This document shows positions 18,028 to 54,598 of a stretch of DNA of 64,000 bases, in pieces. Both the position numbers and the translations under genes were made by a program. Within the stretch, counting starts at the first letter, position 1; every line of letters starts with the position of its first letter. Under the pieces are notes generated by a model. That model was not told where the DNA came from. It searched no databases and saw nothing but the letters and a program-made list of their open reading frames with translations. Source of the DNA: Acanthopleura granulata (lineage: Eukaryota; Mollusca; Polyplacophora; Chitonida; Chitonidae); NCBI GenBank assembly GCA_016165875.1, contig JABBOT010000005.1, positions 23,752,627 through 23,816,626 on the forward strand, read 5' to 3'.

Positions 18028-20395
18028 ATGATTAGATCTAAGTATGGCTTAGGGCTAATAGCCAATTCCACAGAATTTCAGCCTTATTATTGTGTAAAGC
18101 TCATGGAAAAATCTCCAGCTTATACAGACGAATACAGTGAGAAAAATGAGCATGGGTATGGATGACTACAGGGTTACAGTAAAGCGAGAGGATGGTGTGA
18201 GGTTTTCAAATTGATTTATTCTGCCCTTTGTCTATACAGGATACCACACACACATGTTCACACATGCACATAAATGTATGAATCCTCACATGGAACCGCT
18301 AACCCAATGTGACAGATCATGGCATCCTGGTTCACCAAATATTTGAAGACAGCCTATAAAGAAGACAGGAATGCATAAAAACAATGTTACCCTTGAAAGA
18401 AAGCTGCCAGGTGGTTTCATAATCACAGACGCTCCACTCCAGGAATCAGGCCAAAGCCCAAGAATGGCTTAGATTATGCCACAAAATCCGCCCTCTCAGG
18501 AAAAAGTGTGAGTAATGGAATGCCAGTCAGCTAAATGGAACAGCAATATATCTCTCCACGGGCACATGTACTGTTCCCGAACAAGGGCAACTGGTCAGTG
18601 TATCAGGACGAAAACAGCCTTCATACTGAAAAAACGCAACTCGTAATACATGGAATTTTTTCGGGATCTCAACAGCTCTGTCTGCATCAACAATTTGCAG
18701 CATCTGAAGATGACCTGCTCAAGGCTTTTGTTCCGCATCCAACCCCTCGGATGTTATCCATCAAAAAAAATGTCAATAAAACTGCGCCACATGCATGCAG
18801 TCAGAAAGCAGGGCAGAGGGACTTGTCCTCCCTGAGTTACATCATGTCTGGCTCAGGAGAAGGAGCGAGTACAGTGCGTCCAGACAGCCTGGGGTTTATA
18901 TGCTAATGAATGACTCACTCAAAGCAATGGTTTAAAGTGGGCAAGCCAACGGCTGGCTCAATCCTCTCGCGACCATGGGAAGGGATTTTGATCATTGAAT
19001 CACTGAGGCAATCAACTGGAAAAATTTCACACACGGTAAAACAAATCAGTTTTTTTCCTTTCCTTTGACCATACCCATGCACCCATGCACATGTGAATGA
19101 CCTACATCAATGAACTGAGAATTTTTTTGTTCTAACAGAGCTGCCTGTGCATCACAGAGTGCAGGGAAGTTCTTATGGTCAAGTAGCATTCCAAACAGAT
19201 ACAACTTAGAAAATTAATTATTTACATATATACTTTATTTCAGCCAACACTATAATCTTTCAAGTACAATTACATCTAGATGTCGTTGGAAATAAAGGTG
19301 ACACTGGCACATGACCAGCCTGTCTATACAGCCATAGTCACAAAAGTAATGTAAACAGAGAAGTCAATGCTCAAACCACAGCAAATAAAGAAATGAAACT
19401 GTGGTGTAAAAATTTAGTACTATTCGGGTTTTTCAGTTTTTTGATTTAACATTCCCTTTTAACATTATTCGAGTCCTCTCACAGCAGGTCGGTTCCAATG
19501 CTGATGTATTCATAACTGGCAACAATGTGAAGTCATAGTGTGCCACGTGACACCTCACCCTGTCATAGTTTGTGGTCGCCAGATGCAGCAATTGGCTTAT
19601 AACCATATACTGGGTGTATCACTGAAGCAAGTGCCAAGACGTTACATCTTGTGTATGAAACTTCAGTCACTACGGTGGGGTTGCATTATTCCGAATTAGC
19701 CTGGTACACTGAACAATCTCCATGTATTTTATGGCTGCATTGTGTTTGTCAATAATACATGCTCTAATCAACCGAGAAGACTAGTAGAGCTATAGAACAA
19801 CCTAATAACTTCCTTGGCAGACAGATGGTTGAGGCTCGCCATCAAAAGCTCGCCATCCACACGTTTACTGCTGAAAGACATTCATCACCTTCATAAATGC
19901 GCCATAATTCAATAAAAGAACAAAATCACTAAAGGTCTTGTGTCTGGGGAAGGAAGACTTGGAGAGACATGACTCTAATACATCACTGGATTTTCATAAA
20001 CCAGTACTTGGAAGCAATATTCCTTTGAGGACACAATAAAAAATCGCCGAAAGAAGCCAGTGTTATGAAGTACAGACGCATAAAACAGACCCTATTGGAA
20101 GCTTTATGCCTATCTTCTGACTGAGAGTGATGATACCGTCGAGGAGCATCACCCGCAGAGAAACAAGCCTCTGCAAGTGGTGTGCTTTCTTTTTGTTATT
20201 TCATACACTTAAACATGTCACAGTTTCTGCACAGTGGTGCTTGTGAAGGAAAGAGCTGGCTCACAAGCACTGCAGCACTACAGCAGAGAATAATGTGTAA
20301 TCACACAGTCTGGAACCAATTGTAGCTTGTAGATGTTCCTCATTTAAAAATAAAAGGTCTCCTTAGATGGCCTAACATTTCTCCCAGTTTTAGAG

Positions 20396-20580
20396 GTAAT
20401 GTCACAAAATATTATTTTTCATACTGAAACTTCCCTGAAACTTCCACTTTTTCAGAAGAATAACATCTTACGTTCCAAACAAATGTCAACAAACCTTCCT
20501 GAAGTCAACAGAACTATCATAATGGGAACAACTGAGCAACTTAGTAATGGTCTAAATTTTAGGTCGTTTAGGGTATTTCA
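20396..20580 (-). repeat. Dispersed repeat family, diverged copy (also at 28077-28264)
   Basis: ACAGAACTATCATAATGGGA, GAGCAACTTAGTAATGGTCT and AAATTTTAGGTCGTTTAGGG match the reverse of the family consensus. It lies at the left end of the duplicated block, so it appears twice. The open frame at 20399-20584 is this repeat. Confidence 0.6.
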
Positions 20581-21122
20581 ATGACAAATGGTGCTTCAGA
20601 CCTGTGTTTTCCATCTAAAATATATCATCCTCAAAATTTTTTTACTGCCCACCTGGCCAAACTTTTCAGAAACTTTGTTTTGAGCTTTCTTTATTTTTGT
20701 CAGATTTAAAGACTACTATTTTCTGGAAAAAAAAAAATTGTTTGGTAGCATAATGTAGATTTTTTATAGGGTGTTCACTAAGGCATATTTTGAAGGCTTC
20801 AATTCTGCTTGAGTAATTAGGTTAATACCCAAATCAACATTTAGCTTAAAATATTGCCTTGACTGTGACATCTGAATGGAGACAGGAATATTTCTGTCCA
20901 CAAATAATACTGTCTAAAAATGTCTATTTCAGATTAAACAGACTGTTTTCAATCATTGTCCTTGGGTCTTCCAGACACATGTTAAGGATCCCAAGTGATA
21001 ATTTTATCATTGTTTGCTGTTAAAAAAACTGTCGTCAATAACTGGTCAAGTATACTTCAGTTGTTCAAAAGTGTTGTATCTTGTTTAAGTGAGGATGTGT
21101 TGTGAGTGATTGGCTGGCTTAC

Positions 21123-21306
21123 CCTCCATCATCTTCCTCCTCCTCAATCTGCTGGGACATGAGAGCGCTCGTAGATTTGGCCTTCACACACACTATGCTG
21201 GCAGGGCTCTCCCCTCCCTTCAACTTGGACCGTTTCCTGGAAGCTCTGAAAAACTTTCTCATTGCTTCGAAGGGTTTGAACTTTCTCTTCTTTTCATTTT
21301 TTCCAT
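21123..21306 (-). CDS. Exon 2 of the CRACD/DUF4592-like gene, copy A (basic segment)
   Basis: The minus-strand acceptor is TTCTGTTGCAG (AG at 21308-21307) and the donor is GTAAG from 21122. The exon is 184 bases, phase 1 in and phase 2 out, matching exon 1 before it and exon 3 after it. It encodes about 61 residues in three parts: a very basic stretch (KNEKKRKFKPFEAMRKFF, then RASRKRSK), a middle stretch with SIVCVKAKSTSALMS, and an acidic tail (QQIEEEEDDGG). A basic KFK..KFF motif near the N-terminus is, from memory, a hallmark of KIAA1211/CRACD and its paralogue. The longer open frame starting at 21376 reads through the intron and its first 23 residues should not be used. Copy B differs by two substitutions and one extra Glu codon, so the reading frame is preserved, as expected for a real exon. 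Confidence 0.75.
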
Positions 21307-22318
21307 CTGCAACAGAACAAAGGTTGAGTGAGTGCTCCAGGAACTGATCTGAAATACTCGGGACTTCAGCTTTCATAAATGGAGCTTGATTTAATAGCTA
21401 TTGACTGGAGGAAGAGAATTTTGCTTTTACATTATCAAAGATCAATGTCAACAAACTTACCAAGAATAATGAAACACAAAATCTGTATTTGCACAGCCTG
21501 GGAATATCGTATTGATTTATTACACTGTTGTTTAAACCCAATCAAAATATTTTCCCATGCCTGTGATGGCAGCAAAAATAGGACAACACACATTTAGAAA
21601 ATTAGACAGAAGGAAAATGAGAAAGTCCAGAAGGAAATGGCCCAATTCCATGTTGACTTCCTTATTTACTTGTTTTATTACAGCTTATTTCAATGCTTAC
21701 AATACTTCATTTGCATACATGTAGAAGACAGCTTTAGGGGTGGAGGGATTTTGTTTAAAGTGAGACGGAAACATTCATGCCTTGCTAGGTACTTGACAGG
21801 CCCCACTCCCCCCGATAAACCACAAGAACAGGAAGCCAGATTCAATATGCCTTTAGAGCAAATGGTGTGTAAAGGCTCCTTTCATAAGTAAATACTCTCT
21901 AGAAAAGAACCCTTTTGTTTTCTGCTCAGGACCTGTATCACTTTTAAATCTTCCGCACACCATCAACAGCTCATGTACCTGGAGTATTCAGACCATTACT
22001 CCATAGTGTATCTCTTTTTTTTTTTTTTTTCCTTTTCATTTGCTGCACAAAATGTTATTTTGCTTGTAATGTTCCCCTGCCAACATTTGTGTTACTGTAC
22101 GTACAACTCCAGATTCAGGCTGTCCCTCTCAATGTGGGCAACACAAAAGGGTCCAAATCGTAGTGAAACACACCGTCTCCTGATGTGACGCTGCATTGCT
22201 TGTACATATACACCAAAAAGGCATGATGTACTCCAGGAAGGAACAATGGGATAGATAGTTTTAGACTGCTGTGTCAAAGGCTGGGTAGAGGTTTTATGAG
22301 TTTCCTACTCCTCAACAA

Positions 22319-22476
22319 TATTTATTTATTTATTTGATTAACGTTTTATGTTGTACTCAAGAATATTTCCCTTCTCCAACGGAGGTAGGCATTATGGTGG
22401 GAGGAAACCAAACAGAGCCCGGGCAAAACCCATGATCATCAGCCATGGTTATGGCAGACCTTCCCACGGCTACCCC
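22319..22476 (-). mobile_element. Truncated SINE, inverted relative to its neighbour
   Basis: Begins with TTTATTTATTTATTTGATT (reverse of the tail), then AAGAATATTTC, CATTATGGTGGGAGGAAACC and CCCATGATCATC, ending within the body. The tRNA-like head is missing. It lies about 150 bp from the plus-strand SINE at 22633, so transcripts of this region could form a hairpin. The copy B counterpart is 29924-30080. Confidence 0.8.
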
Positions 22477-22632
22477 CGTCAGCCACAGAAGGTCTATAAC
22501 TAAGGCACTATATTTCAAAACACATGTTGAGTATGTGTATAATGGCAATCACAGCACCCCTCAAACAAGCTGGTCTTATGTTCCCTCTCATAATACCTCA
22601 CTGTTTCTGTACAGCTGTGCTCATAAAGCACC

Positions 22633-22908
22633 GGGGGCCTCCGTAGCTCAGTTCATCAGCACGCTAGCGCAGTACAATGACCCGAAGCCTCCCACCAATG
22701 CAGTTGCTGTGAGTTCAAGTCCAGCTCATGCTGGTCTCCTATTCGGCCATACGTGGGAAAGTCTGGCAGCAACCTGCGGATGGACATGGGTTTCCCCGAG
22801 GCTCTGCCCAGTTTCCTCCCGCCATAATGCTGGCCGCCGTCATATAAGTGAAATATTCTTGAGCACATTGTAAAACGTCAATCAAATAAATAAATAAATA
22901 AATAAATC
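22633..22908 (+). mobile_element. tRNA-derived SINE, full-length copy (copy A block)
   Basis: Starts GGGGGCCTCCGTAGCTCAGT, a clear tRNA-like head with an A box. It has GAGTTCAAGTCC (B box), the shared SINE body, and a tail of CAATC plus AAATA repeats. No clear target-site duplication is seen. The open frame across it (22445-22873) is SINE sequence, not a protein. The same element is at 30237-30511 in copy B. Confidence 0.85.
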
Positions 22909-24364
22909 ACTGCAGTGCTGTACAACAGTAGAGAATGGTGTGTTTTCACACAGCTTGGCATCCATTTGTACATGTGGGAAATGTTGCCCACGGCCAGAAG
23001 TTTTGCTGCACAAAGTTGTCTTGCTGCACATAAATGTTTAGAAACTTCTACAACTTCAAAGTATGGAATTTCCTTCGAAATCATATCCCGAATAAATGAA
23101 TGGGGGATACACTAAATTGTGTCTATACATGATGGCATAACTAATGTGATACTTCAAGCAACATGTACTGTGTACTATGGCAAATTATAATTTCAATGCG
23201 TGACATATGCATCTGCCATCAATCTTTCGGATACTAACAAACGCAGGCATCAATACCGCATTTAATGCACATGATGCTGTCACCTTTAATCTGACACCAT
23301 CTACATATTCTCTTTACACATACATGTATATTCTTAAAAACAACAGCTACAAATTGACATGCAACAGCATTACTTCATCAAGCCAGAAATAAAATATAAA
23401 AAGGAAATGCAATGACAGAGCAATTAAATCCTCGCACGATTTGAACTGGGGGCTATAGGGCTTTGTGTGATGATCTGTCGCTTGTTGTTTAATCTGCCTT
23501 ATCCACTGTACACAGACAGCTATTAAATCCCCTCCTGGTGTGGACAGGGCATTTTTGTGCCCCTCAATACATTGACAGCCTTCCTCACTTCCTCTCCGTT
23601 TCATGACAATTTCTGCCATCGTGTTTTTACACCACACTTTGTGTCATCAGTTATGTAAACTTACACTGGATGCACTTGGCAGAACTCTTTATGACTGTGG
23701 ACAACAGTTCAGACATACAGCTAACTTTTCAAAAGGATTAATTTTGACACCCCTGAAAAAACATTTTCTTTCTTCAATTTTGTTTTTGGGATTTTAATTT
23801 TTTTTTTTTTTGGCTACAAGAGCAGTAAAACCAGATTCTGGTACATGCTGGTATAATTAAATGTGTTAAGTCTTAATCTGGATTGTCATGCTCAATTCTT
23901 TTTTGTCCATACCTAACAGCATTTCACCTCACTGTGAAGCCCCCTGCCCCTGAATAATACACTTTAAGCAGTCAAAAATCTAATAACGTCACTTGAAATA
24001 TTAGTTCTGTCCAAAAATTCCATCCGAAATCTAACACTTTTCTGCAAAATAATTTTAATGGTTTTTACAAGTTATAAATCCACAAATCATCCCCTTCATA
24101 TATTACAGTGAATATGTGTAGAACAGACAGCTAAAAATACACATTTACAGCAACATTTACAAGTACAGTGTACATAGTTGTTCGGTTTTTGCTAGGTTTG
24201 TCCACAAATTAGCCATACATGTAACACACGATGCAGTTCAAGTGGAGATAACTGGTGTCACCGTGAGAAATGTTTCCCACATGTACAAGAGACAGTTCAA
24301 CATAATCTCATTGAACGCACCTACATGCAGAAGTACATGCAGGTGCGTACACTGGCAAATTTCC

Positions 24365-24555
24365 AACTGGTATACCCTAAATCACCTAAAATTTTTGTAG
24401 CTCATTTTAGTCCTGTTAATTGTAGAAAGGTATTTTGAGGTTAACTGGGAAGGCAGGATCACATCCTACAGAACAAATGTAAGTTTCAGTTCCACAAGTT
24501 ATTTACATGTATTAAGGTATTTATTTGCCTCTAAAAATGAAAAAATTAATGTGAT
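24365..24555 (+). repeat. Dispersed repeat family, diverged plus copy (also at 32003-32190)
   Basis: TACCCTAAATCACCTAAAAT, then AGCTCATTTTAGTCCTGTTA and GGTATTTTGAGGTTAACTGG follow the order of motifs seen at 63330. Confidence 0.5.
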
Positions 24556-25339
24556 CTCTATTTTATGTGATCTCATGTGCTTGTATAGGTTTGCTAACAT
24601 CAGTTACATCAACAGATATTTTTCCTTTCTCTCCAATGAAATTTAACACCTTGATTCTACTGCATCAAATCAGTCTCCAAGGTTTTAGGCAAACTGACAT
24701 CTGCTACAATGTAGTTCTCAGAAGCCTTCATGTACATACATACATGTACAGACTTTGTACCAGCAAGTCCCATTAAGCACACATCATTGTTAACATTGTA
24801 CACAAGGTCTTATTTTCTTACCAGGCTCCAGGAATGAGATTGCAGGGCTAACTTAGTTGTATACAACTATGTGTGTGACTGTTTGTTGGTAATTTTTGTC
24901 ACAGTATGCAGGAAATATCCAGAAACTTGTAGGGATGTTCACAACAGCATGAACAATCCCAGTCAATTTATAAGAGATTGCACTTAGTATCAGGGAACTC
25001 ACACATGTTGGCATGATTTACATTTATGGTCTAAAACCTATATGTTTAAGGCTAAGATAACACTGCAAACCAAAAACTACAAGCATCTATATTGAGATAC
25101 ATTTGATATATCTACAGAAATTAAGAAAGGATTCTAAAATGTTTTTTAATTTATATACATAAAAAATGGAGCATATTGTTCTAAAGTTCTAAAATGTTTT
25201 ATAATAGCAAAAAAACAAAAAAAATACTGTGCAATGTACTTAAAACCCCTTGGTCTTAAGCACATGTACATTGTAACCAATGCATACAAATTCCAAGAGA
25301 TATTATTTATACCAGTCATTCATTAAGTTGTGTAGGTGT

Positions 25340-25705
25340 TGTATAAATTTGGTGAACTTGGGACAAACTATTCAAGACATAGAGCATATACCAGCCTTTT
25401 ATAAAATTTAACTCCAGTGACCCTATGACCTTGAATAAAAAGGTCAAGGTCACTGAAAATCAATAGGGTTATTCCTCATGCCAATGTGTAGGTGTGGTGT
25501 AGGTTTGGTGAACTTGGACTAAACCGCTCTAGAGATAGAGCATTTACAAGCCTTGTATAAAATTTAACATAAATGACCTTAATGACCTTAAAGAAAAGGT
25601 CAAGGTCAGTGAAAATCAACAGGGTTCTTCCTCGTGTCAATGTGTAAGAATGGTGTAAGTTTGGTGAAAACCTGATAAACCGTTCTAGAGATAGAGCATT
25701 TATAC
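25340..25705. repeat. Tandem repeat of about 150 bp with AGGTCA-rich inverted repeat (copy A)
   Basis: Two and a half units of a sequence containing TTTGGTGAACTTGGACTAAA, GATAGAGCAT and AAGGTCAAGGTCACTGAAAA. Each core is an inverted repeat: TGACCTTAATGACCTT with AAGGTCAAGGTCA (25418-25452 and 25574-25608). TCAAGGTCA matches the extended half-site known for NR5A and ERR nuclear receptors, but use as a regulatory site is untested. The open frame at 25476-25736 is repeat-derived. Confidence 0.85.
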
Positions 25706-25800
25706 CAAAATTGGCTGAGGGGTAAAAATGAAGCATGCTTTTGTATAATCTCCAACGATCATGTTTGTTTTCAACCTACTGTATAAGAAGCAATAAGATT

Positions 25801-25916
25801 TCTTTATTTATTTAATTGGTGTTTTACGCGACCATCCACAGGTTGCTGGCAGACCTTCCCATGTACAGCCAGAGAGGAAGCCAGCATGAGCTGGACTTCA
25901 ACTCACAGCGACCGAG
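25801..25916 (-). mobile_element. SINE fragment with internal deletion, next to exon 1 (copy A)
   Basis: Tail (TTTATTTAATTGGTGTTTTACG) joined directly to the body (GACCATCCACAGGTTGCTGG through GAGCTGGACTTCAACTC). About 73 bp present in copy B at 33470-33542 are missing. The SINE lies in the first intron, about 40 bp beyond the exon 1 donor. Confidence 0.8.
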
Positions 25917-25957
25917 AAGTATAAAGAATGTTGGTGAATTGTTTTCCAAAGTCTTAC

Positions 25958-26149
25958 CCAGCCCTTCCTCCATCTGCTCCCCACTGGGCCCTGCAACTAT
26001 TTCCGCCTCTGTCTCCATGGTAACAGCTCCCGTCCTCTGCTTTCAATGATTGGTTTCAGCCGTGGCTGAAGAAACTGCTGACCAGGTCACCATGTGGGGC
26101 GCCTCGTCGTCTGTTGTCAGGAACTAATCTGCCCCACCCTTAGAGTCAT
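25958..26149 (-). CDS. Exon 1 (5' UTR plus first 20 codons) of a CRACD/DUF4592-like gene, copy A
   Basis: Read on the minus strand, a pyrimidine-rich tract ending in TTTGCCAG (AG at 26150-26151) precedes the exon, and a GTAAG donor follows at 25957-25953. The start ATG is at 26018 in a strong context (ACCATGG). An in-frame TGA lies ten codons upstream, so the first 131 bases are 5' UTR and at least one more UTR exon should lie further right. The coding part is 61 bases: an acidic N-terminus beginning METEAEIVAG and ending MEEGL plus one base (phase 1), which completes a codon with exon 2 (G + AT = Asp). An identical exon is in copy B. The open frame runs past the donor into SINE sequence; that extension is not coding. 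Seen: splice signals, phase, start. Inferred: membership of this gene. Confidence 0.68.
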
Positions 26150-27739
26150 CTGGCAAACAGAAAACAGAAAACTGTTACCACCACGATGCAGGTGATGGTG
26201 GCTGCATGTACAGAGACATGTACAACAAAACCTCTCACAGTGGGAAGTGCAAAATTACATCCTGGTAGCAGAGGTTACTAAGCCTGTGTTAAAGATTCCT
26301 GTGTCCTGGCAACATGGGATGCCTGTTGCTGAGAAAACAAGAACGTGGCACCTGGCACAGCCTGCTTCTTCTCTCTACGTGCAATATTTGTACTGGAAAC
26401 TGCTGTATTCAGGGGTTTTGCAGCAGTTAATGTGGTCTTACATGAAGTCTTATTGCGGCCACTTTCCATTCACTAATAGGGCATACCCTCTACAGGCATC
26501 TCTGACCAAAGATTGGAGATGACCTCTGCCATATAAGTCATATACTTGTATACTTTGAGTCTTATGACCCAAAAAAGAACACTATTTCAAATCTACAAAA
26601 AAGATACAATGTATCAAAGATAAATCATCTGTGCACATGAATTAACAGGTGGACTGAACATTTGCGATGCACTGTGCATGTACATTCAGCACATCACTAT
26701 ATCTGGGGTACCAGATGCCATTTGAACAACAGTATCATTTGATAACATACGTGTAGTGCAGGAAATGGAATGGTTTCATGTTGGATGGTAAAAGTAAACC
26801 AAATCAATATGATTTACCTTTACCTCTCATTAAAGAATTAAAGGATGACAAAGTGATTGAGAGCAAAGAAGACACAAAAAACACCTGTTGGAAACTGAAA
26901 TAGTCTGACGTTTGATGGCAAACGTAAAGCCTTTGAGCACAAAGAAGATAAAGAAGTGCCCTTCACTTAATATTTTGAATGTATAAATGTACATATACTT
27001 CAAGGCATCCATAAGTACAGGTACATGTGGAAACGTACACATACTACGCTTACTACATACTTTACAGCATGACCCCTGAAAGACATTTTTTTGCCCATTC
27101 TTATAATTAGACAGCGTATCTTGTTCTTTGTACCAAGTAACAACTGACATACTTCAACATGAATTTAGTTGTGCAAACCACACATATGGACTTTTATAAG
27201 GAGGTGTGAATATAAACATACCTGCTCAAAAACAATAATAAAGGCCTGCTAAAAATAGCACAGGAGTACTTGCTGGTTTTGAACCTGAGCCCTGGAGAGA
27301 GACCAGAGGGCTTCCAGCTGAATCCATCAGGCATATCAGCTTCCCTGAGTTTAGGTGCACTCAATAATACGACAGTATCATTTCTTAATTTCATCATTAT
27401 CATTGTTTATTTATAAACAACACATAAACTCAGCCTATAAATTTCACCTTTCAAAGTGACAGTCAATGAGAAAAATACATAAAATACGACACAGTTCAAT
27501 TCACAAACAATTTACATGTATACTTGTTTACCTCGCGCACTTAATGGCCAGAAATTTAATTGATTCCTTGCAACAGAACTCTTTATAAAGCTTCATAACT
27601 TTTAACAGGTCACAAAAAACAGATTTAATTGGTCACTGTGTCTCGTGGCAAGTTAACCGTGCCGCATTCATTGATGATGTATTATTCTATATAAGTTGAG
27701 CCAGACAGATAACTGTGAGAAGTTACAAAGCCTCTCTTA

Positions 27740-27752
27740 NNNNNNNNNNNNN
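27740..27752. other. Assembly gap (13 Ns)
   Basis: A run of 13 unknown bases. The sequences on either side are the end and the start of the same 7.7-kb block, so the true gap is probably negative (an unmerged overlap). Confidence 0.97.
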
Positions 27753-28815
27753 AGTACAGACGCATAAAACAGACCCTATTGGAAGCCTTATGCCTATCTT
27801 CTGACTGAGAGTGATGATACCGTCGAGGAGTGTCACCCGCATAGAAACAAGCCTCTGCAAGTGGTGTGCTTTCTTTTTGTTATTTCATACACTTAAACAT
27901 GTCACAGTTTCTGCACAGTGGTGCTTGTGAAGGAAAGAGCTGGCTCACAAGCACTGCAGCACTACAGCGGAGAATAATGTGTAATCACACAGTCTGGAAC
28001 CAATTGTAGCTTGTAGATGTTCCCCATTTAAAAATAAAAGGTCTCCCTAGATGGCCTAACATTTCTCCCAGTTTTAGAGGTAATGTCATAAAATATTATT
28101 TTTCATACTGAAACTTCCCTGAAACTTCCACTTTTTCAGAAGAATAACATCTTACGTTCCAAACAAATGTCAACAAACCTTCCTAAAGTCAACAGAACTA
28201 TCATAATGGGAACAACTGAGCAACTTAGTAATGGTCTAAATTTTAGGTTGTTTCGGGTATTTCAATGACAAATGGTGCTTCGGACCTGTGTTTTCCATCT
28301 AAAATATATCATCCTCAGAATTTTTTTTTACTGCTCTCCTGGCCAAACTTTTCAGAAACTTTGTTTTGAGCTTTCTTTATTTTTGTCAGATTTAAAGACT
28401 ACTATTTTCTGGAAAAAAAAAATTGTTTGGTAGCATAATGTAGATTTTTTATAGGGTGTTCACTAAGGCATATTTTGAAGGCTTCAATTCTGCTTGAGTA
28501 ATTAGGCTAATAACCAAATCAACATTTAGCTTAAAATCCTGCCTTGACTGTGAAATCTGAGTGGAAACAGGAATATTTCTAACAAAATGTCCACAAATAA
28601 TACTGTCTGAAAATGTCTATTTCAGGTTAAACAGACTGTTTTCAGTCATTGTCCTTGGGTCTTCCAGACATATGTTAAGGATCCCAAGTGATAATTTTAT
28701 CACTGTTTGCTGTTGAAAAAACTGCCTTCAATAACTGTTCAAGTATAATTCAGTTGTTCAAAAGTGTTGTATCTTGTTCAAGTGAGGATGTGTTGTGAGT
28801 GATTGGCTGGCTTAC

Positions 28816-29002
28816 CCTCCATCATCTTCCTCCTCCTCCTCAATCTGCTGGGACATGAGAGCGCTCGTAGATTTGGCCTTCACACACACTATGCTGGCAG
28901 CACTCTCCCCTTCCTTCAACTTGGACCGTTTCCTGGAAGCTCTGAAAAACTTTCTCATTGCTTCGAAGGGTTTGAACTTTCTCTTCTTTTCATTTTTTCC
29001 AT
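28816..29002 (-). CDS. Exon 2 of the CRACD/DUF4592-like gene, copy B (probable haplotype duplicate)
   Basis: This is the counterpart of 21123-21306. It has the same acceptor (AG at 29004-29003) and donor (GTAAG from 28815), but is 187 bases because the acidic tail has one extra Glu codon (EEEEEDDGG against EEEEDDGG). Two residues also differ: KLKEGESAAS here against KLKGGESPAS in copy A. The in-frame indel and unchanged splice sites support coding function. The context says this is an allelic copy created by unmerged contig ends. Confidence 0.66.
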
Positions 29003-29923
29003 CTGCAACAGAACAAAGGTTGAGTGAGTGCTCCAGGAACTGATTTGAAATACTCGGAACTTCAGCTTTCATAAATGGAGCTTGATTTAATAGCTATTGA
29101 CTGGAGGAAGAGAATTTTGCTTTTACATTATCAAAGATCAATGTCAACAAACTTACTCAGAATAATGGAACACAAAATCTGTATTTGCACAGCCTGGGAA
29201 TATCGTATTGATTTATTACAATGTTGTTCAAACCCAATCAAAATATTTTCCCATGCCTGTGATGGCAGCAAAAATAGGACAACACACATTTAGAAAATTA
29301 GACAGAAGGGAAAATGAAAAAGTCCAGAAGGAAATGGCCCAATTCCATGTTGACTTCCTCATTTACTTGTTTTATTACAGCTTATTTCAATGCTTACAAT
29401 ACTTCATTTGCATACATGTACAAGACAGCTTTGGGGGTGGAGGGATTTTGTTTAAAGTGAGACGGAAACATTCATGCCTTGCTAGGTACTTGACAGGCCC
29501 CACTCCCCCCGATAAACCACAAGAACAGGAAGCCAGATTCAATATGCCTTTAGAGCAAATGGTGTGTAAAGGCTCCTTTCATAAGTAAATACTCTCTAGA
29601 AAAGAACCCTTTTGTTTTCTGCTTAGGACCTGTATCACTTTTAAATCTTCCGCACACCATCAACAGCTTGTAATGTTCCCCTGCCAACATTTGTATTACT
29701 GTACGTACAACTCCAGATTCAGGCAGTCCCTCTCAATGTGGGCAACACAAAAGGGTTCAAATCGTAGTGAAACACATCGTTTCCTGATGTGACGCTGCAT
29801 TGCTTGTACATACACACCAAAAAGGCATGATGTACTCCAGGAAGGAACAATGGGATAGATAGTTTTAGACTGCTGTGTTAAAGGCTGGGTAGAGGTTTTA
29901 TGAGTTTCCTACTCCTCAACAAT

Positions 29924-30080
29924 ATTTATTTATTTATTTGATTAATGTTTTATGTTGTACTCAAGAATATTTCCCTTATCCAACGGAGGTAGGCATTATG
30001 GTGGGAGGAAACCAAACACAGCCCGGGCAAAACCCATGATCATCAGCCGTGGTTATGGCAGGCCTTCCCACGGCTACCCC
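29924..30080 (-). mobile_element. Truncated SINE (copy B block)
   Basis: Counterpart of 22319-22476. Confidence 0.8.
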
Positions 30081-30236
30081 CGTCAGCCACAGAAGGTCTA
30101 TAACTAAGACGCTATATTTCAAAACACATGTTGAGTATGTGTATAATGGCAATCACAGCACCCCTCAAACAAGTTGGTCTTATGTTCCCTCTCATAATAC
30201 CTCAATGTTTCTGTGCAGCTGTGCTCATAAAGCACC

Positions 30237-30511
30237 GGGGGCCTCCGTAGCTCAGTTCATCAGCACGTTAGCGCAGTACAATGACCCGAAGCCTCCCACC
30301 AATGCAGTTGCTGTGAGTTCAAGTCCAGCTCATGCTGGTCTCCTATTCGGCCATACGTGGGAAAGTCTGGCAGCAACCTGCGGATGGACATGGGTTTCCC
30401 CCAGGCTCTGCCCGGTTTCCTACCGCCATAATGCTGGCCGCCGTCATATAAGTGAAATATTCTTGAGCACATTGTAAAACGTCAATCAAATAAATAAATA
30501 AATAAATAAAT
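30237..30511 (+). mobile_element. tRNA-derived SINE, full-length copy (copy B block)
   Basis: Counterpart of 22633-22908 with only a few substitutions. Confidence 0.85.
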
Positions 30512-32974
30512 CACTGCAGTGCTGTACAACAGTAGAGAATGGTGTGTTTTCACACAGCTTGGCATCCATTTGTACACGTGGGAAATGTTGCCCATGGACA
30601 GAAGTTTTGCTGCACAAAGTTGTCTTGCTGCACACAAATGTTCAGAAACTTCTACAACTTCAAAGTATGGAATTTCCTTCGAAACATATCCCAAATAAAT
30701 GAATGGGGGATACACTAAATTGTGTCTATACATGATGGCATAACTAATGTGATACTTCAAGCAACATGTACTGTGTAGTATGGCAAATTATAATTTCAAT
30801 GCGTGACATATGCATCTGCCATCAATCTTTCTGATACTAACAAACGCAGGCATCAATACCGCATTTAATGCACATGATGCTGTCACCTTTAATCTGACAC
30901 CATCTACATATTCTCTTTACACATACATGTATATTCTTAAAAAATACAGTTACAAATTGACATGCAACAACATTACTTCATCAAGCCAGAAATAAAATAT
31001 AAAAAGGAAATGCATTTACACTGCCTATTTACATAAATCATGCGCTGGATCAATGACAGAGCAATTAAATCCTCGCACGATTTGAACTGGGGGCTATAGG
31101 GCTTTGTGTGATTATCTGTCGCTTGTTGTTTAATCTGCCTTATCCACTGTACACAGACAGCTATTAAATCCCCTCCTGGTGTGGACAGGGCATTTTTGTG
31201 CCCCTCAATACATTGACAGCCTTCCTCACTTCCTCTCCGTTTCATGACAATTTCTGCCATCGTGTTTTTTACACCACACTTTGTGTCATCAGTTATGTAA
31301 ACTTACACTGGATGCACTTGGCAGAACTCTTTATGACTGTGGACAACAGTTCAGATATACAGCTAACTTTTCAAAAGGATTAATTTTGACACCCCTGAAA
31401 AAACATTTTCTTTCTTCAATTTTGTATTTTAATTTTTTTTTTTTTTTGCTACAAGAGCAGTAAAACCAGATTCTGGTACATGCTGGTATAATTACATGTG
31501 TTAAGTCTTAATCTGGATTGTCATGCTCAATTCTTTTTTGTCCATACCTAACAACGTTTTACCTCACTGTGAAGCCCCCTGCCCCTGAATAATACACTTT
31601 AAGCAGTCAAAAATCTAATAACGTCACTTGAAATATTAGTTCTGTCCAAAAATTCCATCCGAAATCTAACACTTTTCTGCAAAATAATTTTAATGGTTTT
31701 TAAAAGTTATAAATCCACAAATCATCCCCTTCATATATTACAGTGAATATGTGTAGAACAGACAGCTAAAAATACACATTTACAGCAACATTTACAAGTA
31801 CAGTGTACATAGTTGTTCGGTTTTTGCTAGGTTTGTCCACAAATTAGCCATACATGTAACACATGATGCAGTTCAAGGGGAGATAACTGGTGTCACCGTG
31901 AGAAATGTTTCCCACATGTACAAGAGACAGTTCAACATAATCTCACTGAACGCACCTACATGCAGAAGTACATGCAGGTGCGTACACTGGCAAATTTCCA
32001 ACTGGTATACCCTAAATCACCTAAAATTTTTGTAGCTCATTTTAGTCCTGTTAATTGTAGAAAGGTATTTTGAGGTTAACTGGGAAGGCAGGATCACATC
32101 CTACAGAACAAATGTAAGTTTCAGTTCCACAAGTTATTTACATGTATTAAGGTATTTATTTGCCTCTAAAAATGAAAAAATTAATGTGATCTCTATTTTA
32201 TGTGATCTCATGTGCTTGTATAGGTTTGCTAACATCAGTTACATCAACAGATATTTTTCCTTTCTCTCCAATGAAATTTAACACCTTGATTCTACTGCAT
32301 CAAATCAGTCTCCAAGGTTTTAGGCAAACTGACATCTGCTACAATGTAGTTCTCAGAAGCCTTCATGTACATACATACATGTACAGACTTTGTACCAGCA
32401 AGTCCCATTAAGCACACATCATTGTTAACATTGTACACAAGGTCTTATTTTCTTACCAGGCTCCAGGAATGAGATTGCAGGGCTAACTTAGTTGTATACA
32501 ACTATGTGTGTGACTGTTTGTTGGTAATTTTTGTCACAGTATGCAGGAAATATCCAGAAACTTGTAGGGATGTTCACAACAGAATGAACAATCCCAGTCA
32601 ATTTATAAGAGATTGCACTTAGTATCAGGGAACTCACACATGTTGGCATGATTTACATTTATGGTCTAAAACCTATATGTTTAAGGCTAAGATAACACTG
32701 CAAACCAAAAACTACAAGCATCTATATTGAGGTACAGTTGATATAGCTACAGAAATTAAGAAAGGATTCTAAAATGTTTTTTAATTTATATACATAAAAA
32801 ATGGAGCATATTGTTCTAAAGTTCTAAAATGTTTTATAATAGCAAAAAAACAAAAAAAATACTGTGCAATGTACTTAAAACCCCTTGGCCTTAAGCACAT
32901 GTACATTGTAACCAATGCATACAAATTCCAAGAGATATTATTTATACCAGCCATTCATTAAGTTGTGTAGGTGT

Positions 32975-33335
32975 TGTATAAATTTGGTGAACTTGGGACA
33001 AACTATTCAAGACATAGAGCATATACCAGCCTTTTATAAAATTTAACTCCAGTGACCCTATGACCTTGAATAAAAAGGTCAAGGTCACTGAAAATCAATA
33101 CGGTTATTCCTCATGCCAATGTGTAGGTGTGGTGTAAGTTTGGTGAACTTGGACTAAACCGCTCTAGAGATAGAGCATTTACAAGCCTTGTATAAAATTT
33201 AACATAAATGACCTTAATGACCTTAAAGAAAAGGTCAAGGTCAGTGAAAATCAACAGGGTTCTTCCTCGTGTCAATGTGTAAGAATGGTGTACGTTTGGT
33301 GAAAACTTGATAAACCGTTCTAGAGATAGAGCATT
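32975..33335. repeat. Same AGGTCA-rich tandem repeat in copy B
   Basis: Counterpart of 25340-25705, with inverted cores at 33053-33087 and 33209-33243. Confidence 0.85.
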
Positions 33336-33430
33336 TATACCAAAATTGGCTGAGGGGTAAAAATGAAGCATGCTTTTGTATCTCCAACGATCATGTTTGT
33401 TTTCAACCTACTGTACAAGAAGCAATAAGA

Positions 33431-33634
33431 TTTCTTTATTTATTTATTCATTTGATTGGTGTTTTACGCCACACTTAATAATATATAGGAGGAGACCGCA
33501 CAGAGCCCAGAGGAGACCACACAGAGCCCAGAAGAAACCCACGACCATCCACAGGTTGCTGGCAGACCTTCCCATGTACAGCCAGAGAGGAAGCCAGCAT
33601 GAGCTGGACTTCAACTCACAGCGACCGAGAAGTA
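33431..33634 (-). mobile_element. SINE fragment next to exon 1 (copy B), longer allele
   Basis: Same insertion as 25801-25916 but retaining the middle (GGAGGAGACCGCACAGAGCC and a near repeat of it). The 20-bp-scale repeat inside shows a small local duplication as well as the copy A deletion. Confidence 0.8.
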
Positions 33635-33670
33635 TAAAGAATGTTGGTGAATTGTTTTCCAAAGTCTTAC

Positions 33671-33862
33671 CCAGCCCTTCCTCCATCTGCTCCCCACTGG
33701 GCCCTGCAACTATTTCCGCCTCTGTCTCCATGGTAACAGCTCCCGTCCTCTGCTTTCAATGATTGGTTTCAGCCGTGGCTGAAGAAACTGCTGACCAGGT
33801 CACCATGTGGGGCGCCTCGTCGTCTGTTGTCAGGAACTAATCTGCCCCACCCTTAGAGTCAT
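33671..33862 (-). CDS. Exon 1 of the CRACD/DUF4592-like gene, copy B (probable haplotype duplicate)
   Basis: This is the counterpart of 25958-26149, with the same 192-base length, the same acceptor (AG at 33864-33863), ATG at 33731 and donor at 33670. The coding part is identical to copy A. It lies in the second of two near-identical 7.7-kb blocks that meet at a run of Ns, so it is best treated as the other allele rather than a second exon. If the duplication were real, splicing exon 2B to exon 1A would bring an in-frame-stop UTR into the message. Confidence 0.62.
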
Positions 33863-35452
33863 CTGGCAAACAGAAAACAGAAAACTGTTACCACCACGAT
33901 GCAGGTGATGGTGGCTGCATGTACAGAGACATGTACAACAAAACCTCTCACAGTGGGAAGTGCAAAATTACATCCTGGTAGCAGAGGTTACTAAGCCTGT
34001 GTTAAAGATTCCTGTGTCCTGGCAACATGGGATGCCTGTTGCTTAGAAAACAAGAACGTGGCACCTGGCACAGCCTGCTTCTTCTCTCTACGTGCAATAT
34101 TTGTACTGGAAACTGCTGTATTCAGGGGTTTTGCAGCAGTTAATGTGGTCTTACATGAAGTCTTATTGCGGCCACTTTCCATTCACTAATAGGGCATACC
34201 CTCTACAGGCATCTCTGACCAAAGATTGGAGATGACCTCTGCCATATAAGTCATATACTTGTATACTTTGAGTCTTATGACCCAAAAGAGAACACTATTT
34301 CAAATCTACAAAAAAGATACAATGTATCAAAGATAAATCATCTGTGCACATGAATTAACAGGTGGACTGAACATTTGCGATGCACTGTGCATGTACATTC
34401 AGCAGATCACTATATCTGGGGTACCAGATACCATGTGAACAACAGTATTATTTGATAACATACGTGTAGTGCAGGAAATGGAATGCTTTCATGTTGGATG
34501 GTAAAAGTAAACCAAATCAATATGATTTACCTTTACCTCTCATTAAAGAATTAAAGGATGACAAAGTGATTGAGAGCAAAGAAGACACAAAAAACACCTG
34601 TTGGAAACTGAAATAGTCTGACGTTTGATGGCAAACGTAAAGCCTTTGAGCACAAAGAAGATAAAGAAGTGACCTTCACTTAATATTTTGAATGTATAAA
34701 TGTACATATCCTTCAAGGCATCCATAAGTACAGGTACACGTGGAAACGTACACGTACTACGCTTACTACATACTTTACAGCATGACCCCTGAAAGACATT
34801 TTTTTGCCCATTCTTATAATTAGACAGCGTATCTTGTTCTTTGTACCAAGTAACAACTGACATACTTCAACATGAATTTAGCTGTGCAAACCACACATAT
34901 GGACTTTTATAAGGAGGTGTGAATATAAACATACCTGCTCAAAAACAATAATAAAGGCCCGCTAAAAATAGCACAGGAGTACTTGCTGGTTTTGAACCTG
35001 AGCCCTGGAGAGAGACCAGAGGGCTTCCAGCTGAATCCATCAGGCATATCAGCTTCCCTGAGTTTAGGTGCACTCAATAATACGACAGTATCATTTCTTA
35101 ATTTCATCATTATCATTGTTTATTTATAAACAACACATAAACTCAGCCTATAAATTTCACCTTTCAAAGTGACAGTCAATGAGAAAAATACATAAAATAC
35201 GACACAGTTCAATTCACAAACAATTTACATGTATACTTGTTTACCTCGCGCACTTAATGGCCAGAAATTTAATTGATTCCTTGCAACAGAACTCTTTATA
35301 AAGCTTCATAACTTTTAACAGGTCACAAAAAACAGATTTAATTGGTCACTGTGTCTCGTGGCAAGTTAACCGTGCCGCATTCATTGATGATGTATTATTC
35401 TATATAAGTTGAGCCAGACAGATAACTGTGAGAAGTTACAAAGCCTCTCTTA

Positions 35453-39615: not shown

Positions 39616-40110
39616 ACCCCAACAACCAAGCTCTCAATGAAACTCTTCACTATATGTAGACACATGTGCCCAAAGAAAATACACTAACAACAACAAAATG
39701 ATTGATGTGTGAAGACCATAGTACACAACAACTATACACTGAACACATTTAGGTACATGTATTTAATTCTTATTTTATGCCACACTCAGTTTTATTTTGC
39801 TTTCAGGGTCTATCCATCAGAAAAGTCTGTGAAGCTGAATGAGTGTTGACAAGTGTCCTCACTACGGCAGTTCAAATGATGATCCAAAATTTCTCTTTAT
39901 AGGTAACTGTCTGCATGCCTGCCTCCCAGATTCAACAGAAAGTTAATGTACACATGTGCAGTGTAAATCAGAGTGTGTTTCTACGAATCTGTGATTCGTA
40001 AACACCCCCTCCCTCCCCCTTCCCCCCCAAAAAAACAACCAGACGAGTTCTAAACTCAGACAGAAACAGGAGACATTGTTGAAAGGGAAAAGTACCAATG
40101 TGGGGAGAGC

Positions 40111-41510
40111 TGAGCTAAATCTGCCCAACCACAACACAAACCTTCCAACTCCTGCTGGTGTTGTGGGCAGACGAGGTGGCAAGGTGTCTGTCTGCTGACG
40201 TGGGAGTGTGTGAGCTAAATCTGCCCAACCACAACACAAACCTTCCAACTCCTGCTGGTGTTGTGGGCAGACGAGGTGGCAAGGTGTCTGTCTGCTGACG
40301 TGGGAGTGTGTGAGCTAAATCTGCCCAACCACAACACAAACCTTCCAACTCCTGCTGGTGTTGTGGGCAGACGAGGTGGCAAGGTGTCTGTCTGCTGAGG
40401 TGGGAGTGTGTGAGCTAAATCTGCCCAACCACAACACAAACCTTCCAACTCCTGCTGGTGTTGTGGGCAGACGAGGTGGCAAGGTGTCTGTCTGCTGAGG
40501 TGGGAGTGTGTGAGCTAAATCTGCCCAACCACAACACAAACCTTCCAACTCCTGCTGGTGTTGTGGGCAGACGAGGTGGCAAGGTGTCTGTCTGCTGAGG
40601 TGGGAGTGTGTGAGCTAAATCTGCCCAACCACAACACAAACCTTCCAACTCCTGCTGGTGTTGTGGGCAGACGAGGTGGCAAGGTGTCTGTCTGCTGACG
40701 TGGGAGTGTGTGAGCTAAATCTGCCCAACCACAACACAAACCTTCCAACTCCTGCTGGTGTTGTGGGCAGACGAGGTGGCAAGGTGTCTGTCTGCTGACG
40801 TGGGAGTGTGTGAGCTAAATCTGCCCAACCACAACACAAACCTTCCAACTCCTGCTGGTGTTGTGGGCAGACGAGGTGGCAAGGTGTCTGTCTGCTGACG
40901 TGGGAGTGTGTGAGCTAAATCTGCCCAACCACAACACAAACCTTCCAACTCCTGCTGGTGTTGTGGGCAGACGAGGTGGCAAGGTGTCTGTCTGCTGACG
41001 TGGGAGTGTGTGAGCTAAATCTGCCCAACCACAACACAAACCTTCCAACTCCTGCTGGTGTTGTGGGCAGACGAGGTGGCAAGGTGTCTGTCTGCTGACG
41101 TGGGAGTGTGTGAGCTAAATCTGCCCAACCACAACACAAACCTTCCAACTCCTGCGGGTGTTGTGGGCAGACGAGGTGGCAAGGTGTCTGTCTGCTGAGG
41201 TGGGAGTGTGTGAGCTAAATCTGCCCAACCACAACACAAACCTTCCAACTCCTGCTGGTGTTGTGGGCAGACGAGGTGGCAAGGTGTCTGTCTGCTGAGG
41301 TGGGAGTGTGTGAGCTAAATCTGCCCAACCACAACACAAACCTTCCAACTCCTGCTGGTGTTGTGAGCAGACGAGGTGGCAAGGTGTCTGTCTGCTGAGG
41401 TGGGAGTGTGTGAGCTAAATCTGCCCAACCACAACACAAACCTTCCAACTCCTGCTGGTGTTGTGGGCAGACGAGGTGGCAAGGTGTCTGTCTGCTGAGG
41501 TGGGAGTGTG
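40111..41510. repeat. Satellite array, 14 tandem units of exactly 100 bp
   Basis: The unit starts TGAGCTAAATCTGCCCAACC and ends GTGGGAGTGTG. All 14 units are 100 bp and nearly identical: one site is C or G (CTGACG/CTGAGG) and only a few singletons occur, for example at 41155 and 41366. Each unit can fold: CTGCCCAACCACAACAC pairs with GTGTTGTGGGCAG over 13 bp with a 4-base bulge. The minus-strand 77-codon frames that recur every 100 bp come from the repeat and are not genes. Confidence 0.96.
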
Positions 41511-44500
41511 TGCCAAGTGCAGAACAGAAGCACATGGCTGCTTGGTGAGAAACGACAACAGTGCACCTTTTTTTTTTTTCCAACTTTTCGGCACATAATG
41601 AGGCAATTATCCACACTTATGCTTTATGCAATGAAACAATTATTGTGTGGAATTCAAAATGTAATTTTCCTCATTCCTCATACAGGTACATTAAACACCT
41701 GTGTTTTTCAGCATGATTTTTGATGCCACATGTATACATGGCACAACAACAGGTGAGAAGTTAATGAGGCTAAGACAGATGTGGCAGTAACCACACCTGT
41801 CTGCAATGTCCACATATCCGGTGTTATCAGTTCCCTGAATTAGTTCTGAGAGGAAAACATTCAGCAAGCCAGCCTGGAGATTCACCTGGTCGTACAACAC
41901 ACTGTTGAATAAAGTGATTCAATTTGTATATTTACATATATTGTATGTATGATACATGTACATGTGCTATATATAAGTATGCACATAAAGATCGCCCATA
42001 CATGTATATTTATGCATGTGTACATGTCCTGTATGTAAAGCCACTTCCTTGACCAGCTAATGTAATATAACAACTACCTAAGAATATTAATTACACCTAC
42101 AGTCACAAAGTTGAAGTTCTTCATAAGTATTTCCTAATCCTTTAACAATCAGAGACACTTTTTTAGTCCATGTAAACCAAACCAAGGCAAACGGTCAGTT
42201 GTTCCCCCAAAATAAAGTTCTCTGATACCAATTCAAAGCAAATTACAAAAATGCTAATGATGGCCTTACAAAGAAGAGATTGTCTTTAAGTAGTTCAGAT
42301 CTATTTTTTGGCTGTCTTGCCTTGCCTGTCTAAACACTGCTGCCACAAGCTTGTTGTGTCTGTTATCGTCACTTTCAGATACATGTAACTGATTAAGTCC
42401 TTAACTGATAATCTAAGCTAGTGATGGTTGGCAGACTACCTCTGATGCTCCTGTCATAATCTATGACCCTTCACTCAGGTGATAAATGCTCACACTACAC
42501 CCTAAGAGTCTCTTACTGACGTGTTTACAAGCACAGTCATCCTTCAACTTTGTACTAGGACATTATTATTAACTGTTTGAAGGTGAAAAGGTCTTCACAC
42601 CATCCATTTGTATAGGGGACACACCCTTCTAATGTTTTTAATGTTATTTTTAGCTCGACCTAAACACTAATAAAATGGTATAGTTATAATGTTATACCAG
42701 CACAGGTTGACTTTAAATATATGCCTGTGGCATATTAACCTGCTGGCATAACATATATAATACAGGTACATACTTGATCATAAATCTGTACAACTGGTCA
42801 GATTTCATACACAAGTTAAGGTTTACACTTTTTTTAATGCGCTACTGTGGTTACTCGACTGATAGACTTTTAAAACTCAGGTGAGGAAGTTTGAGGTTGG
42901 TAGTGTTTGATAGATCCAACCAATCAGTACACACAAATAGCTGTACACCTTTATTACAGGAAGGTGACTAAGGAGTCTTGAATTCTGAAACCACAGACAC
43001 TGCTTTATATATATATATACACACATGAGAGTTGTTTAGTGTAGCATGTCAATGGCAAGAATACACACCAGCCCCCAAACATTCCGACAAGATATTCTGA
43101 CAGCAGGGTGGTTTGATGATGACTGTATGTCTCTAACCCTGTTGAATTGTTACATTAAAGTGTCACTCTGCTCACAACACAAAATGGGTAGAAATATTAA
43201 AATTATATGAAAGAAATCCAACAGAACAAAGTGAACACCACAGGTTCAAAAGAATTTTATCTGACGTGAAAATATTCCTTATATGACTTCGAATTAGGCA
43301 TTTACATGTGTGTCGTTTGGTGATGCCATGTGTTTGTACATCACCTCACACCAGGCAAAACAGACATGACACAAATATTATGTTTTCGTATTCTCTGAAG
43401 AAACGTACATGCACAATATCCGTTTTATTATACAGTAATTAATATATATTTTTGTAATTTGGGAAAGCAATTCAGATATTATCATTTCTCAATCTTTGGC
43501 ATTTCACCAGGCTTTTGAGACACATACATTGTATGTTTTGACACACAGTACCTCTTTCAGTTCATATAACTTTGCAGAGAGGAAGTCTCATTCTGCAATG
43601 ATTCAAATGATACTGAAATTGGAGTGGTTTTATGTCTGAATCTCAAAATTCATCGGTCATTATAAAGTATCATGCACCACCATATATTGTTACATCCACA
43701 TTTAAGGCCCTCTATTTATAATGAATACAAAATACATATGACATCGTTATCACACTTTAAATCCACCTACAAAATCGCTGTCCAAAACAATAACATAGCA
43801 ACTTCAATCATAATTGTGCAGTTCAACCATTAGTATACAGTTCATGAAATTCGTACCTGCAGAAATTTTATATCTTAATACATGTACGTGTGGTGTAATT
43901 ATAGTAAATTCACAAATGAATGGTCTATGGGTTTGAATTAAAACTAATATAAAGCTTGTAATAAACCTTTACAATTGTTTAAAACCACTGTTTACTGATG
44001 ACAGAATCTGCATGGCAAAGAAGACAGATGCGGAAGACTTAGACAAGTTACACGCATTTAAGAAAGGTTATGACTCCAAATCTCTTCGGCCAAAGCCCAC
44101 TGTGGACACAGCCATCTGTATGTATAGCTTCATCAGAAAAACACTACATGTAATTACCATACTACAAGTATGTATGGATCAACACACATGCGATTTGTTG
44201 GTAAATCTCCAAATGTACTGTGCATGGGTACTGTACAGCTATGCACTATTGACAGCGAGCAGCAATCATGCAGAAAGGCGAACAAAATGACACATAACCT
44301 GTCATTTATACTCAAACAAACACCTCACTTGTGTTTACTGCAGCAGGCTATTCTGATGACATATCATCTGTCATAAAGAGCTGGAGAGACATTGTAACAA
44401 TGCAGGAGAATGATCGAAAACATTCACAAAGTTTATAAAAGAAAAGAGAAAAAAAGACAAAAAAGTTAATCGTCAATGACAGGTGAAGGTTGTTTTTTTT

Positions 44501-46449: not shown

Positions 46450-46651
46450 CAAAGCCCTGGATTCAAGTCCAGTTCATGCTGGCTTCCTCTCTGGCCATAC
46501 ATGGGAAGGTTTTCCAGCAACCTGCAAACTGTCGTGGGTTTCCCCTCTGCCTAACTTCCTCCTGCCATAATGCTGGGTGCCATCGTATATGTGAAATATC
46601 CTTGAGTATGACGTAAAACACCAATCAAAATAAATACATAAATAAATAAAT
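46450..46651 (+). mobile_element. 5'-truncated SINE
   Basis: Starts near the B box (GATTCAAGTCCAGTTCATGC) and keeps the body and tail (GAGTATGACGTAAAACACCA, AATAAATA repeats). An apparent open frame at 46326-46616 is largely SINE. Confidence 0.78.
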
Positions 46652-46663
46652 CAGATCCGTGGA

Positions 46664-49720: not shown

Positions 49721-51965
49721 TCAATCCACAATGTGTGCAAATAGTCAACTGCACAGAAAGTGTCCAATGCGAAATACAATGTCCTTAAGCACCTTTAGTA
49801 GACCAGTTCATATTTGCATGTATGTTAATGGACACCTGCACACATACTCTTCTAATGCACGTAGCACATATCTTCAGGCACAGTTTCTGAAAATAAGATA
49901 TGTCCATCGTCAGAGCATATGTTTGATACAAACATACCGATCATTACAATTCTTCTCAAAGTTGCCTGTGCCTGTCACCTCATTTGGATACACAATGTAT
50001 ACTCCGCAAAGAAAAGCTAACAGTGAACAACCTAATGTTTAGAGTGATGTACTAATTTTGACATAAGCCTCAGGACACTAGACTCAATCAGCAACAAAGC
50101 CAGGGCTGGTACATTTTTTTAACGCAACCAGTAGGAAATCTAGCCTTGCCCTAGCACTCAATGAAAAAAAAAAAAAAAAAAAAATAGCCTCCTAAAAGAA
50201 CAGATCTTAATAATGATTTAGTGCTGATCCAAGAGACACTTACACCTTATAATGTACACATGCTTGAGAAATGACTGATAACTACCATGGGAAAAAGAAA
50301 ATTGCACTGTGATTCATATCCTGATGTCCTTCAGTGTTTTATGATTGGTGATCTGATGGTCATACACCGTAGAAGACCTAATGTTTCATACACGACTAAC
50401 CTACTCATTTTGTCGCATTCTAAGATCTTAGAAAGGTGTGTTGAGATTTGTTTGGTAGGTACATGTAGGATTATATCTGCCTTGAAAACTTTCAAAAAGT
50501 TTCAAAAACACAAGTAATATTTTATGATCTTAATATGTCTTCTGTCTCTGTTAATAAAGAGGAGTTTACCCTGTGATCTTATGGGCCAAATACAGTACAC
50601 AGGGATACATACAATGTGCTGTTGCTTCGCAGAGAAAAAAGCCAGATATCATTCTCTGCATTTTTCCATTGTTCTAATATTTTTAGGTCAAGAATATGAA
50701 AGCAAACAAATCTTGCTATCACCAGGAAAGTTTGTTGCAAAGGTAAAAATATGGGAGGTCAAGACAGGCTCACCAGCTTAAGGTAAAAAATGTCAAGTCC
50801 CCACATACCTGAGGGTCCACAAGAAATAGTGGCTATACTAGCAGCTTTCTCTACTGACACACATAGTGTAAATGTACATACCTACTTGCCTATACACACA
50901 TACACGCACGTACAGACTGTACACTTGTGGGTTATAACTGGAGAGGATACGATGGAAGATAGCCAGCCAATACTTTAAGGCCTGTTCATAATCCAAACTA
51001 GGCAAACCGGCAGAGAGTGTGGGAAAGGATCCTTAGTTTACCTCAACAACGTGCTATTCCAACAAAACCTCAAGAACAGGTATGGCGTTGGACAGGTGAA
51101 AATACCTGGTGAACACTGCCATGACATACCTGAGAACATGTGGCAAGCTGACCACTTGTCTGGTTAATCTGTTCCCAGCCAGTACCTCTGGCGGCCCTTC
51201 GTAAAGGCTCCTTAAGGGGTAAAGCTAGCTATAGCTAGTCGACCGACCGAGCAAGCAACCGTCCGACAAAACAAGTGGGAAAGGCAAATCCAGTTAACAT
51301 TGATCCCTTCCCCCCAGTGGCTCTGAGTTTAGCTGTTAGCTCCCCGTGTTACTTATCAGCCAGGCTGTGTCAACGGGAGTCTCTCAGTGAGGGGTCCCTC
51401 ACCTTTGACTGGCCACCTTCTAACCTCTGGTGCTCAGTCAGAATGTCTTAGGTTTTCCTCTCCACTGCACACCACCTACCTACATGAATTATACACTACC
51501 TCAGTCCCAGGGGCCCACATAATCAGTTTACCCTAGTTCCATATGAGCTGCATGTACATGAACAACAGTTCACTGTGTTCTTCTCTAACAGGATCATCTC
51601 ACACGCATTCAGGCTGAAACGTATTATTCAGGTACATGAACAAGACAATCAAGCACAATGGTATCTCACTGAGAGCAACATTAACTGCACTCTACTAGAT
51701 TAACGTAAAAACTTAATTACAAGTCACCTGTGCTGAAAGAGAATGTAAAAGTCCGGTGGATGTATGTTAGCTTTTCATTCCTGTATATACAAAAGTCATA
51801 ACAGAAGAAATAAACTTTATGTAATCACTTGTTATGCTTGAAAAGACTTTAAAGACGAGATACAGAGTAACCCTTTATACATGATGTACATATAACTGTT
51901 ACTGTTTTTACATTTTAAAAAAGTTCATGTACATGCAAGAAATGCTATAATTTGTGCTGCATGTA
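49721..51965. other. Non-coding sequence left of the 26-bp minisatellite
   Basis: Contains a poly-A run at 50163-50184 not attached to a recognisable retrocopy. Open frames at 50287 and 50524 lack family features. Confidence 0.5.
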
Positions 51966-53837: not shown

Positions 53838-54077
53838 GCTAGATCAGCGCAATGACCCTCGGCCCTCTCACTAAAGCGTTCGCTGTGAGTTGAAGCCCAC
53901 CTCATACTGGCTTCCTCCCTGGGGGTACTTGGGAAGGTCTGCAAGCAACCTGCAGATGGTTGTGGGTTTACCCCGGGCAATGTTCAGTTTTCTCCCATCA
54001 TAAATGCTTAGTGTTGTCATATAAGTGAAGTACTCTTGATTACAGCATAAAACCACAATCAAATACACAAATAAATA
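53838..54077 (+). mobile_element. Degenerate SINE lacking most of the tRNA head
   Basis: Carries GCGCAATGACCC, GCTGTGAGTTGAAGCCCACC (decayed B box), the body and the tail (CATAAAACCACAATCAAATA). An old copy. Confidence 0.75.
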
Positions 54078-54362: not shown

Positions 54363-54598
54363 GCGGGTGCAAAGAGTAAATCAGCTCAGAAAGCTGTCAA
54401 AGCCCAGACATCACAACTGAAGCATCAAGAGCAAAATTCAAATACACAACCTCATTAGTCAAGGGCCTGACTGTTGCAGCGATATAGTGCTTCAATCATC
54501 TGAGAGGGCTTAGCAGAAAATTCTCAATATATATATATATACAGTGTAGATATTAGGGGAATTTATAAAACATACTTCTTTATGATAAATAACTATCT

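Follow-up and report, generated by a model that had tools for sequence, protein, structure and literature searches.

A very probable unmerged overlap of two contig ends at a 13-N gap as the source of an apparent 7.7-kb tandem duplication in the Acanthopleura granulata assembly

Bionano hybrid scaffolding has a documented way of placing the same sequence twice in a scaffold: contigs that are seen to overlap by optical mapping are left unmerged, with 13 Ns written between them (PMC7649008, PMC10234399, PMC7902669, PMC10937405). As described in the paper on BiSCoT (PMC7649008), the output consists of contig 1, 13 N and contig 2, with the shared end, several kb long, repeated; the regions concerned 'usually correspond to allelic duplications', and one human assembly held 515 such overlapping regions (24.5 Mb). 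The account of the Poa pratensis genome (PMC10234399) states that overlaps, 'regardless of the size', were joined end-to-end by 13-N gaps, treats these gaps as the overlap class, as distinct from sized gaps and 100-N gaps, and attributes such overlaps to high heterozygosity, to repetitive sequence, to paralogous regions of the subgenomes or to errors of assembly. Papers on sweet corn (PMC7902669) and on Brassica oleracea (PMC10937405) likewise mention gaps of 13 N or 13 bp between overlapping contigs. The relevant passage on Brassica rapa (PMC8389630) terms such sites artifactual tandem duplications or negative gaps, and does not itself name 13 N. The heterotype false duplications described by the VGP (PMC8081667, PMC9516828) are closely similar to the locus presented here, with two diverged copies on one scaffold, a gap between them and doubled exons. 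Ko et al. (PMC9516828) count a gap that separates duplicates on the same scaffold among the characteristics of false duplications. Other hallmarks of the heterotype kind are half the usual read depth and heterozygous one-copy k-mers on each copy. The Acanthopleura granulata genome project used Bionano with BssSI and DLE1, according to its description (PMC7850002).

The window analysed here, a stretch of 64,000 bases of this assembly, has a single run of Ns, 13 long (27740-27752). It is flanked by two direct copies on the plus strand, at 20069-27739 (7,671 bp) and 27753-35452 (7,700 bp). Self-BLAST of the window recovers them as three collinear direct-repeat blocks, pairing 20069-21971 with 27753-29668 (96.7%), 22062-25832 with 29666-33472 (97.0%), and 25829-27739 with 33542-35452 (99.3%). 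The E-value of each block is printed as 0.0, so the match between the copies is far beyond what chance would give. In a global alignment, the copies pair from first base to last, with 30 identical columns at either end and zero overhang beside the 13 N on both sides: the final base of the left copy adjoins the Ns, and the first base of the right copy comes directly after them. A previous sequence-only reading had reported 7.7-kb tandem copies at 20069..35452, of which the left stops and the right begins at the N run, with about 7.7 kb of excess length. The coordinates proved exact, the position of the gap was borne out, and the excess that we measured is 7,684-7,713 bp, the 13 N included. Judged from the letters, this layout is that of a suffix-prefix (dovetail) overlap of two contig ends, in which the last 7,671 bases of the left contig, forming its 3' end, would correspond to the first 7,700 bases of the right contig, forming its 5' end.

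Because Bionano writes 13 Ns for contigs that overlap on the map, the run is probably the scaffolding software's own overlap flag. The length of the gap is informative, and the sequence-only reading had made no use of it. The locus shares with the Bionano negative gap both the exact number of Ns and the suffix-prefix identity of the contig ends, and we saw no difference from it at the sequence level. The duplicated pair is separated by a gap on a single scaffold, as in heterotype false duplications. We consider it very likely that the tandem duplication is false and results from overlapping contig ends that were not merged. We further infer that Bionano was the scaffolder used for this join and that each copy represents a different haplotype, as opposed to an erroneous or paralogous contig; that all three hold together, i.e., that the duplication is false, the scaffolding was by Bionano and the contigs are alleles, is probable. 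The sequence-only reading, too, had seen here two overlapping contig ends joined without merging, and it is supported by the dovetail with zero overhang, the allele-like divergence, the border microhomology of at most 1 bp and the lack of a border repeat pair. This kind of artefact is already known and holds no biological novelty.

The scaffold would have arisen as follows. A contig that ends at 27739 and another that starts at 27753 would both span a single 7.7-kb stretch of one locus. Most likely they would represent its two alleles in a heterozygous animal, diverged so far that the assembler did not merge them. Bionano hybrid scaffolding would have judged them to overlap and, in its default output, written the left contig, 13 N and the right contig, whereby the shared stretch would appear twice. 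The real locus would then be single-copy, with just one exon 1 and one exon 2. A point against this course of events is that, going by the recognition motifs, BspQI has no site in either copy, DLE-1 only one in each and BssSI two, so the optical overlap would rest mostly on labels lying outside it. The two states of the locus predict different DLE-1 maps: for a single copy, the sites at 5400 and 46866 would be 33.8 kb apart with one label between them, and for a true double copy they would be 41.5 kb apart with two labels between them, separated by 7.6 kb.

The copies differ by 116 substitutions over 7,566 aligned bp (1.53%) in the global alignment of 20069-27739 with 27753-35452, and by 13 indels (1, 1, 1, 1, 2, 3, 3, 7, 8, 8, 38, 73, and 93 bp), four of which are single-base. 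The genome-wide heterozygosity reported for A. granulata is 0.653% (PMC7850002), which is below this divergence. Transitions outnumber transversions 76 to 40, and the substitutions are clustered (with 30 bins of 250 bp, the variance/mean is 2.87, a value reached in none of 10,000 permutations). One stretch of 250 bp (20819-21068) has 17 differences, identical runs extend up to 636 bp, and divergence is 0.68% over the final 1,911 aligned bases. Ten of the first 500 aligned bases differ, compared with one of the last 500, and the final 492 are identical. The longest indel is a 93-bp segment present in the left copy only (21969..22061), with just a 3-bp repeat at its borders and no clear target-site duplication. 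The 73-bp segment present in the right copy only (33469..33541) lies within a SINE-like repeat and bears a 21-bp tandem repeat. Given the clustering of the substitutions, the transition bias and the small share of single-base indels, the differences look like those between two alleles and unlike long-read sequencing error. Paralogues undergoing gene conversion would fit the same divergence, so the pattern by itself does not tell alleles from a real duplication.

Two alternatives keep the duplication false and change its origin. A run of 13 N might also be the product of another tool, or stand between contigs that merely abut. If another scaffolder or gap filler had made the join, the 13 N would be a chance estimate of gap size; the window has one gap only and so gives no distribution of gap lengths with which to judge this, but 13 N is the documented fixed Bionano value for exactly such overlaps, and we think this origin rather unlikely. 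As noted for Poa pratensis (PMC10234399), repeats, paralogous regions and assembly errors can also give rise to overlaps flagged by 13 N. One contig end might be a second version of the same haplotype, erroneous or left unpolished, instead of the other allele, that is, a homotype false duplication. Duplications of this type are described near contig boundaries by Rhie et al. (2021, PMC8081667). Here, however, the differences are mainly substitutions with a transition bias, several indels are long, and their make-up is unlike that of long-read error. Nor do the differences pile up at both contig ends. The transition bias and the long indels speak against a duplicate made of sequencing errors, and we regard a homotype origin as very unlikely.

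The remaining alternative is that the 5' end of the gene is truly present twice in tandem, at 7.7 kb per copy, with a contig break and a gap exactly at the junction of the copies. The locus does resemble a tandem segmental duplication in that its direct copies lie next to each other, agree at 98.5% of their aligned bases and both have an open frame; gene conversion would also fit the uneven divergence together with the open frames. Assemblies can break at true repeats, and contigs that abut might likewise have been given a minimum gap. Yet this scenario demands that both contig ends stop at the junction with zero overhang and that the gap have, of all lengths, that of the overlap marker. A junction between the two copies was sequenced nowhere in the window, where 13 N stand in its place. 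If the repeat had confused the assembler, the outer borders should presumably have been broken as well, but the sequence is seamless at both 20069 and 35452. A query of 341 bp around either outer border finds no other match in the window than the second copy (E up to 0.01), and this match begins or stops precisely at the edge of the copy.

The outer borders also differ from those of a tandem segmental duplication with visible traces of its formation. Microhomology amounts to 1 bp and 0 bp, with nothing longer, and BLASTN of the two 3-kb border regions (E up to 10) reveals no long repeat pair, the matches being at most 28 bp long (the best by E-value has 23 bp, E 0.026, and is inverted; the longest has 28 bp). 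No recombination origin is therefore visible. A real duplication need not show a repeat pair or microhomology at its borders, and their lack weighs against it without being decisive; we hold a tandem duplication by recombination between flanking repeats to be unlikely on the same observations. A transposon-borne duplication was rejected, as the 341 bp at each outer border match only the other copy within the window. Altogether, a real duplication at this gap seems highly improbable to us. Equally doubtful is its biological corollary, a genuine recent duplication of the first two exons that would create two alternative start regions with their junction at a contig break. We likewise give hardly any credence to the alternative N-termini that it would imply, which would differ by K-G-G-E-S-P versus K-E-G-E-S-A and by one extra E.

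Under the preferred reading of an unmerged overlap, the doubled exons are probably not real, because they would lie in overlapping contig ends set side by side with 13 Ns. They belong to a gene on the minus strand. In the left copy, exon 1 (25958..26018, 61 bp) carries the ATG and ends in the donor GTAAGACT, with boundaries placed by splice signals, and exon 2 (21123..21306, 184 bp), placed by splice signals and homologues, has the acceptor ...TTGCAG and the donor GTAAGCCA. In the right copy, exon 1 (33671..33731) is identical, with none of the 116 substitutions inside it, and exon 2 (28816..29002) has 187 bp, with three substitutions and one in-frame 3-bp difference. Across 245 exonic bases, the copies thus show three substitutions, plus one codon of difference in frame. 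With the exon boundaries so predicted, the frame through exons 1 and 2 is open in both copies and has GT/AG splice signals, in agreement with the doubling of the two exons noted previously. Together, they encode 81 or 82 complete residues ahead of the next junction. Since exon 2 ends in a donor site, the gene presumably continues leftward past 20069.

A search with the peptide of exons 1 and 2 gave two matches only, both to short proteins: the unnamed protein P0001 (E 8.9e-7) and P0002, a protein of the gastropod Batillaria attramentaria that is named hypothetical (E 1.1e-6). The core common to the three, KKRKFKP.EA.RKFF...SK...S.V.VKAKST.AL, lies in exon 2, and the peptide of exon 1 has no clear counterpart in either protein. 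Exon 2 is a basic exon (KKRKFKPFEAMRKFF...VKAKSTSAL) with no Pfam family above the cut-off. Pfam gave nothing above cut-off among nine chosen reading frames, and the sole match of the exon 1 and 2 peptide was DUF5629 (E 0.14, 13.2 bits versus a cut-off of 26.6). The domain search for a further exon covered the minus strand of 1-20069 in three frames and 6 pieces, with stops read as Ala, and yielded no exon but one match below the cut-off (E 0.077). A likeness to the N-terminus of vertebrate CRACD/KIAA1211 is not supported: on the minus strand, short motifs of that region had, besides the copies of exon 2, just one short match, at 8576, in a frame with stops. In the window, ARAGORN found 0 tRNAs, and Rfam had 0 matches at the gathering threshold.

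The interest of the artefact is practical and not biological. If the scaffold is used as is, its annotation may show exons 1 and 2 once too often or contain a partial paralogue that is spurious, and analyses of length and copy number would be inflated by 7.7 kb. The same assembly may contain further joins of this kind; to list them, one could align the sequences on either side of each gap that measures exactly 13 N.

The window has other repeats. A dispersed SINE-like family occurs at 22633-22908, 30237-30508, 33429-33625, 46462-46653, 53835-54077, 54594-54849, and 62330-62515. Its copies are about 70-80% alike between sites by self-BLAST, and two of those that we read end in AAAT-type repeats. 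The tail of the family may resemble a SINE known from molluscs. A 26-bp minisatellite of about 25 copies (51981-52634, 80% matches) lies in the region 51960-52977 and is overlapped by a 90-bp higher-order repeat of four copies (52547-52902). At 40111-41512, a 100-bp unit is repeated fourteen times head-to-tail with 99% matches, and the 2-kb bin at 40001-42000 has a GC content of 50.6%, versus 35-45% in the other 31 bins.
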